Source of the DNA: Prochlorococcus marinus str. MIT 1013
Lineage (GTDB): Bacteria; Cyanobacteriota; Cyanobacteriia; PCC-6307; Cyanobiaceae
NCBI RefSeq assembly: GCF_027359395.1
Contig: NZ_CP114778.1
Span: forward strand, 1,798,001 to 1,862,000
DNA length: 64,000 nt
Direction of reading: 5' to 3'
Position numbers and translations under genes: made by a program. The notes below the pieces were generated by a model that saw nothing but the letters and a program-made list of their open reading frames with translations, was not told the DNA's origin and searched no databases. How positions within the stretch are numbered: the stretch's first letter is position 1; every line of letters starts with the position of its first letter. Shown piece after piece: positions 5,120 to 63,404 of the stretch.

Positions 5120-6132
5120 AACGTCTGTTTTCAAATGTCATTAATTTGACCCTTGTCTTAATAGTAGGAGTAGCTCTTAGTGGTTGTACTGTTAGTAATG
5201 CATCCATTGGCTCATCAAGCCCTTGGACACAAGTCGACCTAGATACTGAGGCAAATCCTCTAGATGCTGACTTTGTTGATGACAAAAATGGGTTTTTAGT
5301 TGGCACCAATAGGTTAATTCTAGAGACAAATGATGGCGGAATTACCTGGAAAGAAAGAAATTTAGATATCCCAAGCGAAGGTAACTTTCGTCTAATAAGC
5401 GTTGATTTTAAAGGCCCAGAAGGTTGGATTGCAGGTCAACCAGGATTGATTCTTCACACAACTGATGGAGGGAAAAATTGGACTCGTCTCGATTTGGGAA
5501 ATAAGTTGCCTGGAGATCCATATTTGATAACAACAATTGATAATGATTCTGCTGAGTTGGCAACTACTGCTGGAGCAATTTATAAAACAACTGATGCTGG
5601 TGAGAATTGGGAAGCAATAGTTGTTGATACTTCAGGCTCTGGAGGCATAAGAGAATTAAGACGCACAAATAATGGTGGTTATATAAGTGTAAGTAGTCTT
5701 GGTAACTTCTTCTCAGTATTAAGTCCAGGTCAGGAGTCATGGAGCCCTCATCAAAGAGCAAGTAGTAAGAGAGTTCAGAGCGTTGGTGAGCAGCCAAATG
5801 GTGATCTATGGATGCTTTCTAGAGGAGCTGAAATCAGGTTTAATGCAGATTCGGATGATATCGACTCCTGGTCAAAACCCATAATCCCAATCGTCAACGG
5901 GTATAACTATCAAGATCTTGTTTGGGATCCATCTAAGTCGATTTGGGCAGCTGGAGGAAACGGAACTTTATTAGTGAGCAATGATGATGGAAAAACTTGG
6001 GAGAAAGACCCTGTTGGTGAATCTGTTCCTACTAATTTCATAAGAATTCTATTTGTGGACGATTCAAATAGTGTCAATCCTAAGGGATTTGTTTTTGGAG
6101 AAAGGGGAAATTTATTGCGTTGGAATGGTTGA
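5116..6132 (+). CDS. ycf48: Photosystem II assembly protein Ycf48 (HCF136)
   Basis: A 338-aa lipoprotein: hydrophobic signal followed by the lipobox LSGC (Cys near residue 23), so it is probably lipid-anchored on the lumenal face. The body is a beta-propeller with repeated turns such as ETNDGGITWKER, HTTDGGKNWTRL, KTTDAGENWEAI and SNDDGKTWEKD. Ycf48 helps insert D1 and stabilises early PSII reaction-centre intermediates including cytochrome b559. It starts within the rubA stop (ATGA overlap) and is followed by psbE after 108 bases. Confidence 0.95.
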   Translation: MKRLFSNVINLTLVLIVGVALSGCTVSNASIGSSSPWTQVDLDTEANPLDADFVDDKNGFLVGTNRLILETNDGGITWKERNLDIPSEGNFRLISVDFKGPEGWIAGQPGLILHTTDGGKNWTRLDLGNKLPGDPYLITTIDNDSAELATTAGAIYKTTDAGENWEAIVVDTSGSGGIRELRRTNNGGYISVSSLGNFFSVLSPGQESWSPHQRASSKRVQSVGEQPNGDLWMLSRGAEIRFNADSDDIDSWSKPIIPIVNGYNYQDLVWDPSKSIWAAGGNGTLLVSNDDGKTWEKDPVGESVPTNFIRILFVDDSNSVNPKGFVFGERGNLLRWNG

Positions 6133-57137: not shown

Positions 57138-57302
57138 CTAGCTTTGGTAAGATTTCCCTCGATATGTAAGTTGTACATGCTGCTTTTCTGCAACTGTTTT
57201 TTGCTGGCTGTACTTCAGACCTCTATAGGTTAAAGACATTTTTTTCTCCGAAATATGCTCAAGTCCCCGTTCCTTGGCTTGAGTCAAACTGCGGCTCATC
57301 AT
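57138..57302 (-). CDS. DUF4278-like small protein with repeated LTYRG motif
   Basis: A 54-aa frame from ATG 57302: MMSRSLTQAKERGLEHISEK, then MSLTYRGLKYSQQK and VQLTYRGKSYQS at the end. The LTYRGxxY motif is the hallmark of the small DUF4278 family common in cyanobacteria, and it occurs twice in this peptide. A shorter product starting at the Met before SLTYRG (57239) is possible. Function unknown. Confidence 0.6.
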   Translation of the reverse strand: MMSRSLTQAKERGLEHISEKKMSLTYRGLKYSQQKTVAEKQHVQLTYRGKSYQS

Positions 57303-57989
57303 TTGATGAGTTGAACGTTTTTGGTAGTTTTTGCTACAAAAAAAATTATAAACAAAATTGTATATCCCTGGTGTTCAGCTTGTTACATAAAGCTAATTGT
57401 CTTTGCAAAAGCAAAAATTTTAAATTCTTTTGATCTGTGACAGTTGAAAAACTTTACTGATTGTTGCTCTTATTTCTTTAAATCAAACTATTTTGTATTT
57501 GTGAGGAGTTGGAATCCTCCGCAGTGGAAACAAGGAAACACTTGCGACTGATTTCACAAAAAAACCGCCTTGTTCAGAACGGGCGGTTTTTTTGTGCCTA
57601 TTAATCCTCTTATCTAATATTATTTTCTCGACTTTTAATAAATAGAATCATTTGAAAGAATAGGTTTGAAGGTAATGAAATATTTTTAAGCAGAAAGAGA
57701 TTCATACCCTGCGCCACATTGAAATTATCTTTCTTTTTACTCATATAGTTTTTCCGAAAAAGAGATTTAGGTTGTAGATATTGTTTGCTTGTATAAAGAA
57801 TAAAGGCATAAGTAGAATTTACCTCCTTTTGGTAATTAGGAATTGATCCTGATGGAACTCTTTGTGGGTTTAATTAAAAAAAAAGCAGAACAACTCCTCA
57901 AACAATCTGTTCTGTAAATGAATAGGGGGGCTCTAGTCGCCAAAACAGCAGGGGTCCCCTTTCTTAATACAGGTTTTTGATAAAGACAA
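57303..57989. other. Intergenic stretch around the Yfr2-type RNA
   Basis: About 690 bases. Contains the small RNA at 57501-57593; left and right of it I see no gene. A short run of six G (57926-57931) lies in an otherwise AT-rich tail. Confidence 0.45.
57501..57593 (+). ncRNA. Yfr2-family small RNA
   Basis: Just after a TATTTT -10-like sequence (57489-57494) the DNA reads GTGAGGAGTTGGAATCCTCC then GCAGTGGAAACAAGGAAACA and CACTTG, matching my recollection of the Yfr2-5 small RNAs: a first small hairpin (GAGGA/TCCTC), a second one with the family loop AGGAAACA, and a strong Rho-independent terminator with perfect 15-bp arms (57555-57569/57582-57596). Yfr2 RNAs are abundant in Prochlorococcus and Synechococcus; their targets were not clear to me. 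Exact start is inferred. Confidence 0.75.
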
Positions 57990-58160
57990 TCAGTCTCCTT
58001 TGTCGTGAATATCGCCTGAATAAGACTGGGTCCCTATCTCTGGTGGAGGATTATTACCGAAGTCATCAACTAAAGCATCCGCTTCACTAGTGAAAAGTTT
58101 AGAGAACCATTGTCTAGTTGCAATGATTGCAGTCCATATTTTGTCTCTTTTTCTATTCAT
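57990..58160 (-). CDS. Small hypothetical protein
   Basis: A 56-aa frame from ATG 58160 with a GAGGT ribosome binding site at a good distance (ACGAGGTATCAACATG). Begins MNRKRDKIWTAIIATRQWFS, ends acidic (YSGDIHDKGD). No family recognised. The same GAGGT-type site occurs before the other micro-genes nearby. Confidence 0.5.
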   Translation of the reverse strand: MNRKRDKIWTAIIATRQWFSKLFTSEADALVDDFGNNPPPEIGTQSYSGDIHDKGD

Positions 58161-58242
58161 GTTGATACCTCGTAAAAAGCGAATGTGCGTCTAATTGCCC
58201 CTTTAGAGACCATCCCCCAGATATTGAAATTATCTAATCATT

Positions 58243-58339
58243 TTTACTCCTCTTAGGTTGAAATTAATATGGGTGAGATCACCAAGGTATTTCTACTTTT
58301 GGGTTTCTCCCATAGATATTTTCAATTAAGAGGAGTAAA
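58243..58339. repeat. Long imperfect inverted repeat (hairpin-forming)
   Basis: TTTACTCCTCTTA at 58243-58255 is exactly complementary to TAAGAGGAGTAAA at 58327-58339; the arms continue with TTGAAA/TTTCAA and ATATGGG/CCCATAGAT pairings, so the 97-base segment can fold into one long hairpin with a loop around 58283-58300. It lies between two divergent small genes, 33 bases before the 61-aa gene. Could be a structured leader, an untranslated RNA, or a miniature mobile element; I have no basis to choose. Confidence 0.65.
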
Positions 58340-58371
58340 CATAAATCAAAGCACTATTAGGAGGTCAAGCT

Positions 58372-58557
58372 ATGTCATGCGGCAATCCTTTTAAACATGC
58401 AATAGAAGACGTAAAGGAAACATTCTCGAAATCTTGTGGAGTTCCTATCCAGGGAAACGATTGGTGTGGTCTGGTTTCTAATTATGAAACTGATTTTGAT
58501 GAGGTCGATTACGAGAATGAGTGTTTGCAGTTCGGAATCTGCTCAATGGACTATTAA
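58372..58557 (+). CDS. Small cysteine-containing acidic protein
   Basis: A 61-aa protein with an excellent ribosome binding site (AGGAGGTCAAGCTATG). Begins MSCGNPFKHAIEDVKETFSK and contains five Cys (CG, CGV, CGL, CLQ, CSM), a pattern that could bind metal or form disulfides. Acidic overall. No family recognised. First of three closely spaced plus-strand micro-genes. Confidence 0.65.
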   Translation: MSCGNPFKHAIEDVKETFSKSCGVPIQGNDWCGLVSNYETDFDEVDYENECLQFGICSMDY

Positions 58558-58587
58558 AAAAACATTGAACTCAAATGAGGTCTAATC

Positions 58588-58722
58588 ATGCAAACAACCC
58601 GTAGTTTCAGATCTAATGGATCGAATACTCATTCATCAATCTTTCTTTGGTTTTCTGTCCTTTTAATTTCCTTTGGAATGCTGCCACACCTAATTCCTTA
58701 TTACTTTCAGTTAAAATATTGA
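58588..58722 (+). CDS. Small single-helix membrane protein
   Basis: A 44-aa frame with a GAGG site (CAAATGAGGTCTAATCATG). Begins MQTTRSFRSNGSNTHSS, then one hydrophobic helix IFLWFSVLLISFGMLPHLIP and a short tail. 30 bases after the cysteine-containing gene, likely co-transcribed. Confidence 0.55.
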   Translation: MQTTRSFRSNGSNTHSSIFLWFSVLLISFGMLPHLIPYYFQLKY

Positions 58723-58730
58723 GGTAAACA

Positions 58731-58793
58731 ATGATTCTTGATCTTCTTAAACTAATCCTTAGAAAACACAAAGATTACTGGGTTGTTGGTTAA
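58731..58793 (+). CDS. Possible 20-residue peptide
   Basis: MILDLLKLILRKHKDYWVVG with GAGG seven bases before the ATG, eight bases after the previous stop. Amphipathic and basic. Too short to be sure, but the ribosome binding site and spacing match those of the two genes before it. Confidence 0.3.
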   Translation: MILDLLKLILRKHKDYWVVG

Positions 58794-58929
58794 ACAGGAG
58801 TTTTTTCACATGTTCACCTGATCTGGATTTGTTAGAAATGGGTTAGGAGTTCTAGCACTTCCGTTCCAGTAGATGGTTGGGTTAGTAAAGGTTGGATTGT
58901 TCAGTTGGATACAAAAGTGCTGAACTCAA

Positions 58930-58958
58930 AAGGGGCGACCAAATCTCGCCCCTTCTTT
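58930..58958 (+). terminator. Terminator of the micro-gene cluster
   Basis: AAGGGGCGA-ccaaatc-TCGCCCCTT with TCTTT after it; about 140 bases beyond the last small frame on the plus strand. Confidence 0.65.
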
Positions 58959-59192
58959 AATGGAATCCCCTTTGTAGGTGGCAAAAGCCACCAATGAGCA
59001 GGTGACTTTTGTCGTTTGAATTAAGAGAATGAACCAACCAATAAGAGAATCATTGCCAACTCTATCAGGATGATTAGTTGCTACTGCCAGAGATTTCTGC
59101 TTTTTCTTTATTCCTGACCCGCAATCGGTCATAGTTGCTTCGACTGTCTTTACTCAACTTTGGTATTGAACAGAAAAGGCCTTCCGACCAAG

Positions 59193-59303
59193 TTGAAAAA
59201 CACAAGAAGACTGGATTATGAATCTGCACATGAAACGCGGAATGAATTGCTATCTAATGATTGGGAATTAATTGAACATCAGATTAATGACGCTTTTGCT
59301 TAA
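59193..59303 (+). CDS. Possible small protein or gene remnant
   Basis: 37 codons from a TTG: LKNTRRLDYESAHETRNELL and on to QINDAFA. The composition is protein-like (acidic helix), unlike random AT-rich translation, but no ATG or clear ribosome binding site is present. Either a small gene with an unusual start or the end of a lost gene. Confidence 0.25.
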   Translation: MKNTRRLDYESAHETRNELLSNDWELIEHQINDAFA

Positions 59304-59695: not shown

Positions 59696-59803
59696 TTAGA
59701 AAATTCCAGGAATGATTTGACCTGTTGTTGCATATGCACCAAAGGCTGCAACGAAGCCAAGCATTGCTGCCCAACCGTTAAACTTTTCTGCTTCAGGAGT
59801 CAT
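59696..59803 (-). CDS. hli: High-light-inducible protein (single-helix, chlorophyll-binding)
   Basis: A 35-aa protein: MTPEAEKFNGWAAMLGFVAA and then FGAYATTGQIIPGIF. The ExxNGxxAMLG motif and the ATTGQIIPGIF end are diagnostic for Hlip/SCP proteins of picocyanobacteria. Hlips bind chlorophyll and carotenoid and protect photosystems under light or nutrient stress. Only 35 residues, i.e. with almost no N-terminal tail, like the short phage- and island-type hli genes. Single copy in this window. Confidence 0.93.
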   Translation of the reverse strand: MTPEAEKFNGWAAMLGFVAAFGAYATTGQIIPGIF

Positions 59804-60157
59804 GGCAAAAAATGAAATATGAAGCAAATATAAAGAACAATTAGCAATACTGTGAGTGTCTACTCACGGCTTTTGATTATGAGAATTGATGCTTCTTATA
59901 AGAAAAGTTTATTTAATCATCGAGATGATTTGTGCTGAGTGCAATCTTTGCTCTCGTTCTTTTTTTCTGGCTAAGTGGTTATTCAAGCTGGAGGAGCTAG
60001 TACTGCATTTAGAAGCAAGATTCAATTCGGACTGATGTATTGCTTTTCTTTTTAGATTTATACTGCTCTCTAAAGCCTTTCATTTTTAAAACTTTCAGGT
60101 GCTTTAGTTGTTGTAAGAATAGTATTATCGCAAGAAACGAAAGAGAGAATAGAAAAA
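59804..60157. other. Upstream region of the TPR-OGT gene
   Basis: About 350 bases between divergent hli and the TPR-OGT gene. Must hold the hli promoter (minus). No other signal recognised. Confidence 0.35.
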
Positions 60158-62488
60158 ATGGATAGATCTAGTAAAGAAGTAGAAGGAAAGCAGAAAATTA
60201 CTGAGGTAAAAATATTTCCAGTTCCATTTCCTTTAGGAGAAATCAAAGAAAATATCACTATTACTACTCATACTCCTTCTAATCCTTCTAAAGAACAAAT
60301 AATTAATCAAGCATTTAAGTTTCATTCCCAAGGAAACATTTCAGAAGCAGCAAAGTATTACCAATATTTTATTGATCAAGGATTCAAAGATCACAGGGTT
60401 TTTTCTAATTTTGCAACAATCTTAAAAGGTCTTGGTAAATTAAAAGAAGCAGAATTTTTGCAACGTAAAGCAATTAAACTTAATCCTAATTCTGCAATAG
60501 CATATTATAATTTAGGGAACACATTGAATCTTCTTGGTGAATCACAAGGAGCCGAAATATCAATACGTAAAGCAATTGAATTTAATCCTGATTATAAAGA
60601 AGCTCATTACAACTTGGGAAATATATTAAAGAAACTTGGTAAATTAAAAGAAGCAGAAATATCATTGCGTCAAGCAATTAAATTGAAACCTGAATTCGTA
60701 AAGGCTTATTGTAATCTTGGACTCATATTAAAAGATCTTGGGAACGCAAAAGAAGCGGAATTATTTACTCGTAAAGCAATTGAACTGAAACCTGATCTCG
60801 CAGAGGCGCATTCAAATCTGGGAATCATATTGAGAGATATTGGCAAATTTCAAGAAGCAGAATTATCTACTCGCAAAGCAATTGAACTTAAACCTGGTTT
60901 CGCAGAAGCTCATTCCAGTCTGGGAAACATATTGAATGATCTTGGCAAATTAAAAGAAGCAGAATCGTCTTTTCTTAAAGCAATTGAACTTAAACCTGAT
61001 TTTGCTGAAGCATATTCTAATTTAGGAAGTATATTGATCGATCTTGGAAGATTTTCAGATGCAGATAAATATCTATCATCTGCATCAAGTCATGCTCCTG
61101 ATAATGTTTTTCATTTTATAAACTCGAATTTAAGACTATCTCCGATTGTGGAGAATAATTCACAAATTGATAATGAAAGAAGTCACTATAAAAAAGAAAT
61201 TAATAATTTAAAAAATAAGGACAATATGATTTATGAATATCCAAAGAGTTTTACTTCAAGTATTTTTTATCTAGCATACCAAAATAGGCTGGATGATAGA
61301 AAGATTCTAGAAGATTTTTCCGACGCAATCTCAAAATCAAAGGGGATGATATTGAATGGATTCTCTCATGATAAATATTTGGTTGCCTCAAGTAAAAGGA
61401 AAAATTTAAAAATAGGTGTTTGCTCAATGTTTCTTAGAGCAAATCATAGTGTGGGTAAGTGTTTCATTAATGTCTTGAAAGATTTATCAGAAACTGATAT
61501 TGATATGACAATATATATCATTCCAGACGAAAAAAATCATTCACAAATAAGAGAAATAAATGACTCCTTTAAAAAAGTAATAGATTTACCCAATTGTCCA
61601 CAAATGGCAGCAAAAGAAATACTTTCACACCAACTTGATGTGATGTTTTATCCAGATATTGGTATGAATAGCTTTTCATATATTCTGGCTTTATCAAGAT
61701 TAGCATTAGTGCAAATTAATGGATTGGGACACGGATCTACATCGGGTATAAAAAATATTGATTATTATATTACTCATGGAATAGAACCTAGTAAGTCCGA
61801 TTTAAACTACACAGAAACCTTGATAAGATTTAGAAGATTACCCTTCAATTTTTCTGCTCCTAAAATAAATGAAAGCAATATTACACTGAAAAATATTATA
61901 AATTCACCAAGTAATTTTTATATTGGTTTAATTCAGTCATTAGTCAAACTTCATCCAAGTTATGACGAGATACTTGAATCAATATTATTAAACATCAAGA
62001 ATTCATATTTAGTTCTAATCACAGACAAAAGTAATTATAAATTCAAATTAATTCAAGATCGATGGAGAAAAAAGAATAATTTGTTGATAGAAAGATCAAT
62101 TTTTCTTGATCGGATGGGAACAGATGATTTCCTCCACATAACAAGAAGCTGCGATATAATGTTGGATCCTTTTTACTTTGGTGGTGGCGTCACTTTTTAT
62201 GAAGCGATGGCATATGGAATCCCATTTATTACATATCCCCACAATCAAAAAGTAAGAATTGTCTCTGCAGGCTATAAACAAATGAAGATACAGAATCCAC
62301 CTATAGCTGCATCTCCGCAGGATTATATAAATTGGTGCAAATTATATTCTAAAGATAAAATGTTATTAGATTCAACAAAGAAAGAGTTAAAGCAACAAGC
62401 AGAAAAATATTTATTCAATGATAATGAAATATATAAAGAGTACTATAAATTCTTTAAAGAAGCTGTTAAAAGCTCAAGAAAAGGATAA
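60158..62488 (+). CDS. TPR protein with O-GlcNAc-transferase-like (GT41) domain
   Basis: A 776-aa protein. N-terminal leader with KIFPVPFPLGEI (about residues 19-30), then about eight TPR units (AIAYYNLGNTLNLLGESQGA, AEAHSNLGIILRDIGKFQEA) to about residue 325. From about 405 a GT-B domain of the SPINDLY/OGT type: FYPDIGMNSFSYILALSRLA, GLGHGSTSGIKNIDYYITHG, IQSLVKLHPSYDEIL and DPFYFGGGVTFYEAMAYG. It would transfer a sugar to protein or glycan; donor and acceptor unknown. The first 110 residues are similar to those of the 24973 protein (FPVP leader, AFKFHSxGNIxxAxKYYxxFIxxGF). Confidence 0.87.
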   Translation: MDRSSKEVEGKQKITEVKIFPVPFPLGEIKENITITTHTPSNPSKEQIINQAFKFHSQGNISEAAKYYQYFIDQGFKDHRVFSNFATILKGLGKLKEAEFLQRKAIKLNPNSAIAYYNLGNTLNLLGESQGAEISIRKAIEFNPDYKEAHYNLGNILKKLGKLKEAEISLRQAIKLKPEFVKAYCNLGLILKDLGNAKEAELFTRKAIELKPDLAEAHSNLGIILRDIGKFQEAELSTRKAIELKPGFAEAHSSLGNILNDLGKLKEAESSFLKAIELKPDFAEAYSNLGSILIDLGRFSDADKYLSSASSHAPDNVFHFINSNLRLSPIVENNSQIDNERSHYKKEINNLKNKDNMIYEYPKSFTSSIFYLAYQNRLDDRKILEDFSDAISKSKGMILNGFSHDKYLVASSKRKNLKIGVCSMFLRANHSVGKCFINVLKDLSETDIDMTIYIIPDEKNHSQIREINDSFKKVIDLPNCPQMAAKEILSHQLDVMFYPDIGMNSFSYILALSRLALVQINGLGHGSTSGIKNIDYYITHGIEPSKSDLNYTETLIRFRRLPFNFSAPKINESNITLKNIINSPSNFYIGLIQSLVKLHPSYDEILESILLNIKNSYLVLITDKSNYKFKLIQDRWRKKNNLLIERSIFLDRMGTDDFLHITRSCDIMLDPFYFGGGVTFYEAMAYGIPFITYPHNQKVRIVSAGYKQMKIQNPPIAASPQDYINWCKLYSKDKMLLDSTKKELKQQAEKYLFNDNEIYKEYYKFFKEAVKSSRKG

Positions 62489-63099: not shown

Positions 63100-63176
63100 A
63101 GCAGTATTAGATGCGAAGAGAAGGATCTTTAAGGTTTAATTAGCGTCTCTAATTCTTTATTCTAAGTTAATTGATT

Positions 63177-63404
63177 ATGACCTTAACTAACGTTGGTGCA
63201 GTTGATCTGCGAAATTATTTTTTGTTTTGGAAGGATGTAATTGCTTTGACTGGTTCATCGGAAATGACCATTCGTCGAGCAATTGCAAGAGGTGACTTCC
63301 CTCCTCAAGTGAAGTTGTTTGGGAATAGAGGAAGAGTTGGATTTCGCAAGGCAGACATTCACCTTTGGTGCGAAGGGGGTTGGAGTGCAGAAGGAAATAC
63401 GTGA
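63177..63404 (+). CDS. AlpA-like excisionase/regulator
   Basis: A 75-aa DNA-binding protein with the AlpA/MerR-type helix-turn-helix TGSSEMTIRRAIARGDFPPQ followed by GFRKADIHLWCEGG. AlpA-type proteins control integrase-encoding elements and can serve as excisionase. Start ATG 63177 (a TTG two codons earlier is in frame). Its stop overlaps the ATG of the integrase (TGATG). Confidence 0.85.
   Translation: MTLTNVGAVDLRNYFLFWKDVIALTGSSEMTIRRAIARGDFPPQVKLFGNRGRVGFRKADIHLWCEGGWSAEGNT

Follow-up and report, generated by a model that had tools for sequence, protein, structure and literature searches.

Positions 57,990–58,793 of the window analyzed here carry four very small open reading frames, and the question they raise is whether such frames are genes at all and, if so, what kind of system they form. 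The window is the whole 64,000-nucleotide stretch from 1,798,001 to 1,862,000 of the 2.05-Mb single-contig genome of Prochlorococcus marinus str. MIT 1013, and coordinates below refer to it unless a locus is named. A sequence-only reading of this DNA had proposed an undescribed small-peptide system, related to stress, toxin–antitoxin-like or surface-located, in which each frame is preceded by a strong ribosome-binding site. The four frames, of 56 codons on the minus strand and of 61, 44, and 20 codons on the plus strand, are present exactly as that reading gave them, and we refer to them as A, B, C, and D.

Four Conserved Small-Protein Genes

Gene A (57990–58160, minus strand) encodes a protein of 56 aa with an N-terminal helix followed by a ...NNPPPEIGxQxYSGD tail, and it runs in the direction opposite to B, C, and D, which follow one another on the plus strand. 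Gene B (58372–58557) encodes 61 aa, including the five cysteines already noticed in one of the frames, and ends in the signature ECLQFGICS. The 44-aa product of gene C (58588–58722) has a single hydrophobic stretch, in agreement with the membrane helix proposed for it, which by eye we also see there, and gene D (58731–58793), the weakest of the four, encodes 20 aa that by eye are indeed basic and amphipathic. Shine–Dalgarno sites precede the ATG of every frame (GAGG for A, C, and D; GGAGG for B), but the spacers are 7, 7, 7, and 6 nt for A, B, C, and D, respectively, and not the 7–10 nt first estimated. The site of D overlaps the stop codon of C (58720–58724), which suggests that translation of the two may be coupled.

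Composition makes the cluster no more than mildly unusual: of 30 random sequences drawn from a first-order Markov model, 2 likewise packed four small frames of this kind into 810 nt. Because composition says so little, we take A–D to be real genes on the strength of their conservation. In codon-aligned sets that include the window sequence (A, n = 22 after three gapped rows were dropped; B, n = 26; C, n = 27; D, n = 27), pooled in-frame pN/pS lies between 0.11 and 0.18 (A, 0.153; B, 0.112; C, 0.180; D, 0.139), versus more than 1.1 in the shifted frames (1.1–2.8). All four genes are thus under purifying selection in the frames given. Third codon positions hold most of the variation, at 39 of 56 positions in A, 36 of 61 in B, 35 of 44 in C, and 17 of 20 in D, with Fisher p values for the excess of 3e-9, 6e-7, 2e-7, and 3e-4 that are optimistic because the sequences are related. 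Amino acids are conserved along the entire length of A, B, and C.

The ribosome-binding sites are conserved as well: GAGG is kept within 18 nt upstream in 22 of 24 relatives for A, 23 of 24 for B, 22 of 26 for C, and 24 of 26 for D, and GGAGG is found in 27 of the 28 distinct B leaders. The impression that sites elsewhere in the genome are weak is borne out within this window, where GGAG or GAGG occurs at −16 to −4 in none of the 40 large ATG frames (at least 150 aa, with the first ATG taken as the start). The four genes form a conserved small-protein set that is probably well translated. D is the least certain member, because it lacks an ATG in 4 of 26 relatives (L014, L019, L026, and L034) and also ends early, with five rows stopping at codon 16 and L038 at codon 13. 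Frameshifts or breaks affect A at L013, L014, and L018, and genome G033 has B, C, D, and the RNAs described below together with a broken A.

The set also appears to be undescribed, as had been suspected: no credible match in Pfam, NCBIfam, PHROGs, or PADLOC names A, B, C, or D, and a literature search exclusive of supplements tied no paper to the four proteins. At E ≤ 1 Pfam gave only a weak fn2 match for B, and a search of PDB sequences, made with B only, returned two weak matches (E 0.35 and 0.98). AlphaFold predicts one helix in A (residues 3–36; mean pLDDT 68.1) and gives B a mean pLDDT of 56.5, and thus proposes no confident fold for either protein. Two known kinds of protein invite comparison. 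The high light inducible (Hli) proteins are likewise small and multi-copy, and an hli gene (59696–59827, minus strand; phrog_178, 1.4e-20) neighbors the cluster, but none of A–D matches the hli family models in Pfam or PHROGs. CP12-type small redox proteins are acidic and have a Cys-pair tail ending near DY. B resembles them in its small size, its acidity, and a Cys-pair tail that ends near DY, but it has no match to the CP12 domain of Pfam at E ≤ 1 and carries a CX5C signature in place of theirs.

Gene B and Its Signature-Bearing Relatives

Judged by its sequence, B is a member of a nameless family of mostly 50–65-aa proteins defined by a C-terminal CX5C signature, [DE]C-L-x-[FY]-G-x-C, within a small protein. 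A degenerate form of the pattern, E-C-x-x-[FY]-G-x-C, occurs at four places in the MIT 1013 genome, where a control pattern occurs at none. One of these is B itself, and the other three, at 485–487.5 kb, are a cluster of further small proteins with the signature ECLQFGIC (L119, 7300–9540; ∼485–487.5 kb of G000). A slightly narrower pattern is found in 35 of 300 genomes of the family, including all 24 of the same genus, and the control pattern in the same scan had one match each in G066 and G118; the pattern matches in other genera are not all small genes, as that in G080 lies in no such frame and those in G165 and G211 were left out. In another genus (G313; L158, ∼5135–5230), the signature with an IPYFYY tail lies between hli genes in a frame that has no ATG, GTG, or TTG start and is perhaps a remnant. 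Across the signature proteins the N termini vary and the tail is common, with several ending in PYFHF, and Pfam and NCBIfam gave the paralogues only weak matches and no family name. The two signature cysteines may have a redox or metal function.

The genomic surroundings of these proteins lean toward stress. Five complete genomes (G000, G011, G020, G026, and G033) have 14 loci that bear the signature, of which 3 lie within 2.5 kb of an hli gene among the matches listed (random mean 0.41; as high in 120 of 20,000 draws) and 9 lie within 10 kb (random mean 1.23; as high in 0 of 20,000), although the loci come from related genomes and so are not independent. If B relatives that lack the signature are also counted, 5 of 15 are within 2.5 kb and 10 of 15 within 10 kb of an hli gene among the matches listed. 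At least 36–43 hli matches per genome (E ≤ 0.001), many of them clustered, were seen in the same five genomes. Adjacency to hli is, however, not a fixed trait of the cluster, because at five of the seven loci of B itself in these genomes the nearest hli gene among the matches listed is 28–412 kb away.

Two further associations involve other relatives of B. A protein that has the N terminus of B but lacks the signature, including its two cysteines, precedes psbA in G004, G020, and G026 (L155, L165, and L168); psbA was checked at L168, with a Photo_RC match recorded for the G020 gene, and in G020 and G026 the same B relative adjoins an hli gene. In G012 and G031, the gene facing A is not B but another signature protein, with a rubredoxin frame 13 nt behind it; that frame matches Rubredoxin at E 1.6e-21 in G031 and has an in-frame stop in G012. 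At L166 the signature protein and rubredoxin occur twice in one contig (4355–4709 and 7641–7995) with identical proteins, which may reflect a duplication or an assembly effect.

Other features of the window include, at 59006–59300, the remnant of a multi-copy protein of ∼91 aa that is intact at L109, L112, and L120, and, at 60158–62488 on the plus strand, a protein combining TPRs with a family-41-type glycosyltransferase. By eye, large proteins with similar N termini lie near the cluster or near copies of its RNAs at other loci.

RNA Genes on the Flanks and the Leader Region of B

A and B–C–D are arranged divergently around a shared promoter-leader-like region, with RNA genes on the flanks. 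Upstream, a Cyano-1 RNA with its terminator (57495–57605, plus strand) matches RF01701 at 61.2 bits, above the gathering score of 41. We take Cyano-1 to be Yfr2, and a computed 8-bp site for the Yfr1/Yfr10 motif supports this. It is followed by a Yfr10-like RNA (57829–57970, plus strand) in which an ACUCCUCAAAC loop is borne on an 8-bp stem and followed by a terminator-like stem, and of which partial copies occur elsewhere in the genome. The loop holds 10 of the 11 letters of ACUCCUCACAC, given in the available account as the motif of Yfr1 (PMC2190773), and in the account available for Yfr10 the motif sits in a loop on a stem (PMC6778093). Rfam's Yfr10 model had no match at E ≤ 1 between 55000 and 62000 of the window and sub-threshold matches in relatives, and the loop is altered in several relatives. 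Also in this part of the window, a Glutamine-II riboswitch (57138–57320, minus strand; 70.3 bits) lies ahead of a small DUF4278 protein.

The terminator that had been placed at ∼58930 is there, absent from the output of a simple terminator scan, and it is contained in a new multi-copy structured RNA (58791–58962, plus strand) that abuts D. This RNA, referred to as the 3′ RNA, consists of an 11-bp stem and the terminator stem, occurs at four places in this genome, and had no Rfam match at E ≤ 1. In the 26 copies considered, out of 39 distinct ones found, the structure is maintained, with 96.7% of cells paired versus 33–48% when the partners are slid. The covariation score is 0.242, versus 0.123 after shuffling, and was reached in 0 of 500 shuffles. 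Changes on both sides are seen in seven pairs, a number reached in 38 of 500 shuffles and owed in good part to one clade split, and the 12 further pair types fall below the shuffled mean of 13.9. Yfr106–108, RNAs of strain NATL2A in the available description (PMC7368042), may include some of the RNAs of this region.

Between A and B lies an inverted repeat (58240–58342) that folds strongly in the window (z −4.7) and that had been taken for a hairpin. As a conserved functional hairpin we reject it, since its arms diverge in relatives and most relatives bear an insert there. Read outwards, each arm has GAGGAGU after what by eye resembles a −10 box, and the repeat is better explained as two divergent promoter-leaders of common origin; a sigma-70 promoter scan gave nothing useful. 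In most relatives an RNA-like insert lies between two direct promoter-leader copies (24 distinct sequences); at L012, L013, L015, L021, and others it has a CACACCUCCU-type stretch and a terminator.

The B leader opens with GAGGAGU, which is complementary to the ACUCCUC of the Yfr10-like loop. Computed pairing of the loop with the B leader reaches −12.1 kcal/mol, a strength attained by one of 40 leaders of large frames (−12.3; median about −4), and its pairing with the Cyano-1 RNA reaches −12.4 kcal/mol, whereas the values for the A, C, and D leaders (−7.4, −6.8, and −7.7) fall within the range of the best few of the background. The comparison is partly circular, because any strong Shine–Dalgarno site pairs with ACUCCUC. 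GAGGAGT is present in 18 of the 28 distinct B leaders and absent from 10, and AGGAGT is present in 21.

A Possible Light/Redox-Stress Module Under Control by Small RNAs

Taken together, these observations lead us to propose, tentatively and as a possibility somewhat short of probable, that the cluster is a light/redox-stress small-protein operon in which Yfr1/Yfr10-type RNAs target the leader of B. In such a module, B would be a thiol- or metal-dependent partner protein that C holds at the thylakoid membrane, and D, translationally coupled, might form a helix at the membrane surface. Yfr1/Yfr10-type RNAs would act post-transcriptionally, their ACUCCUC pairing with the GAGGAGU that opens the B leader, and the Yfr2-type RNA, which bears the same site, would compete for them and free B–C–D. 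According to the available account of strain MED4, Yfr2 interferes with the interaction of Yfr1/Yfr10 with their targets, and its level goes up in high light and under nitrogen starvation (PMC6778093). It is this biology, together with the computed pairing of the loop with both the B leader and Cyano-1, that suggests that Yfr1/Yfr10 hold B down and that Yfr2 frees it. The likeness to the Yfr1/Yfr10–Yfr2 network, as far as it is described in the available sources (PMC6778093, PMC2190773), extends to a Cyano-1 RNA and a motif loop beside the cluster and to the complementary B leader; it differs in that the pairing at this cluster is known from computation only and that here the Yfr2-type RNA comes first and the Yfr10-like RNA downstream of it, whereas an upstream position is reported in HL strains.

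A broader version, speculative and on balance unlikely, is that the small CX5C proteins are a new family and form a layer of the light/redox-stress response of Prochlorococcus that works with local partners, namely A, C, and D here and rubredoxin elsewhere. The consensus Shine–Dalgarno sequence would then be the handle of anti-Shine–Dalgarno RNAs, with Yfr1/Yfr10 silencing through it and Yfr2 releasing. Small ORFs and noncoding RNAs next to hli genes in genomic islands of MED4, some of them responsive to light or phage, offer a precedent in the description available (PMC2518516), to which the comparison is confined: small frames, RNA genes, and hli are packed together in both cases, but B and C were confined, among 300 genomes, to a single genus and one genome of another, apart from weak partial matches of C in three.

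Distribution of the Cluster and Alternative Explanations

As small-protein genes, A and B–C–D are conserved within a single genus-level group of Prochlorococcus. All 24 relatives with named contigs are Prochlorococcus. Among 300 genomes of the family, a profile of B has matches at E ≤ 0.01 in 25 and full-length matches (E < 1e-40) in 24. Of these, 23 are from the same genus, of which 24 genomes were sampled, and one, G086, is from another; the same-genus exception, G013, has a completeness of 87% and retains a paralogue only. C is found at E < 1e-30 in the identical 24 genomes, with weak partial matches in three others. In a second sample, a DNA search recovered the B region in 25 of 36 same-genus relatives, many of which are incomplete, and the 11 without it are 51–87% complete. 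A is wider, with matches at E ≤ 0.01 in 71 of the 300 genomes and strong ones (E < 1e-24) in 29, 23 of the same genus and 6 in other genera, and so it extends to genomes in which searches for B and C had no match.

This distribution bears on an explanation in which the genes encode constitutive subunits or assembly factors of thylakoid complexes, C being a one-helix membrane subunit and B its soluble assembly partner. The single hydrophobic stretch of the 44-aa C, the B relative upstream of psbA in three genomes, and the rubredoxin that follows another B relative in two would all suit such roles. Yet the cluster is doubled in two genomes (G011 and G026) and has lost part of one copy at L112, and this, with a range limited to a single genus-level group plus one more of the 300 genomes, is ill suited to a core subunit and leaves the explanation unlikely.

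The cluster also sits at differing positions in different genomes, which, with the doubled copies, is what might be expected if the genes were cargo of mobile islands, derived from phage or defending against it. An AlpA-type regulator lies in the window (63171–63404, plus strand) and an integrase and a resolvase just past it (L120, 1366–2646 and 12004–12648), so that an integrative element may border the cluster. However, neither the DNA of the region nor protein B found a match in 50,697 phage records, one scan of viral contigs had no match to protein B, and PHROGs gave no credible match for A–D, so that the conservation in cyanophages suggested earlier was not found. The purifying selection on A–D and the presence of the cluster in 23 of the 24 same-genus genomes sampled also argue against mere cargo, and we regard this origin as decidedly unlikely.

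That the locus encodes a type I toxin–antitoxin or other small-toxin system, with C or D as a membrane toxin held in check by an RNA, is more improbable again. A hydrophobic 44-mer and an amphipathic 20-mer beside RNA genes do fit the outline, but the RNA-like insert upstream does not run antisense, and the window locus, L010, L011, and L014 are all without it while retaining B and C, as though recombination between the direct copies had removed it. The genome of L014 does carry the insert where the cluster recurs (L085), and that of MIT 1013 has a partial copy at L122, just before a copy of the 3′ RNA. D lacks an ATG in 4 of 26 relatives, and PADLOC contributed no match. Of the kinds of system first envisaged, the toxin–antitoxin variant is thus poorly supported, whereas the leaning toward stress is strengthened by the hli, psbA, and rubredoxin genes near B relatives and by the Yfr2/Yfr10-type RNAs.

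The frames might instead be mainly regulatory, as upstream or leader frames or as parts of bifunctional RNAs. Several RNA genes are packed at the cluster, the 3′ RNA adjoins D, and RNAs with peptide frames appear in the available account of Steglich 2008; the conservation of amino acids throughout A, B, and C makes this highly improbable. Least probable of all are secreted or surface peptides for signaling or antagonism (RiPP-like), for although the peptides are small, Cys-bearing, and amphipathic, no NCBIfam peptide-precursor model was matched, including the leader models of lanthipeptide/Nif11-type precursors (prochlorosins), and D is inconstant.

The reading we favor, that of a light/redox-stress module, would give the Yfr1/Yfr10/Yfr2 network a concrete and testable set of targets in A–D. 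Genes this small fall under the usual limits of annotation, yet A–D are conserved and have strong ribosome-binding sites that are without counterpart among the 40 large frames of the window. Together with the relatives of B, they place a nameless protein family near photosystem-stress genes in one of the main primary producers of the ocean.
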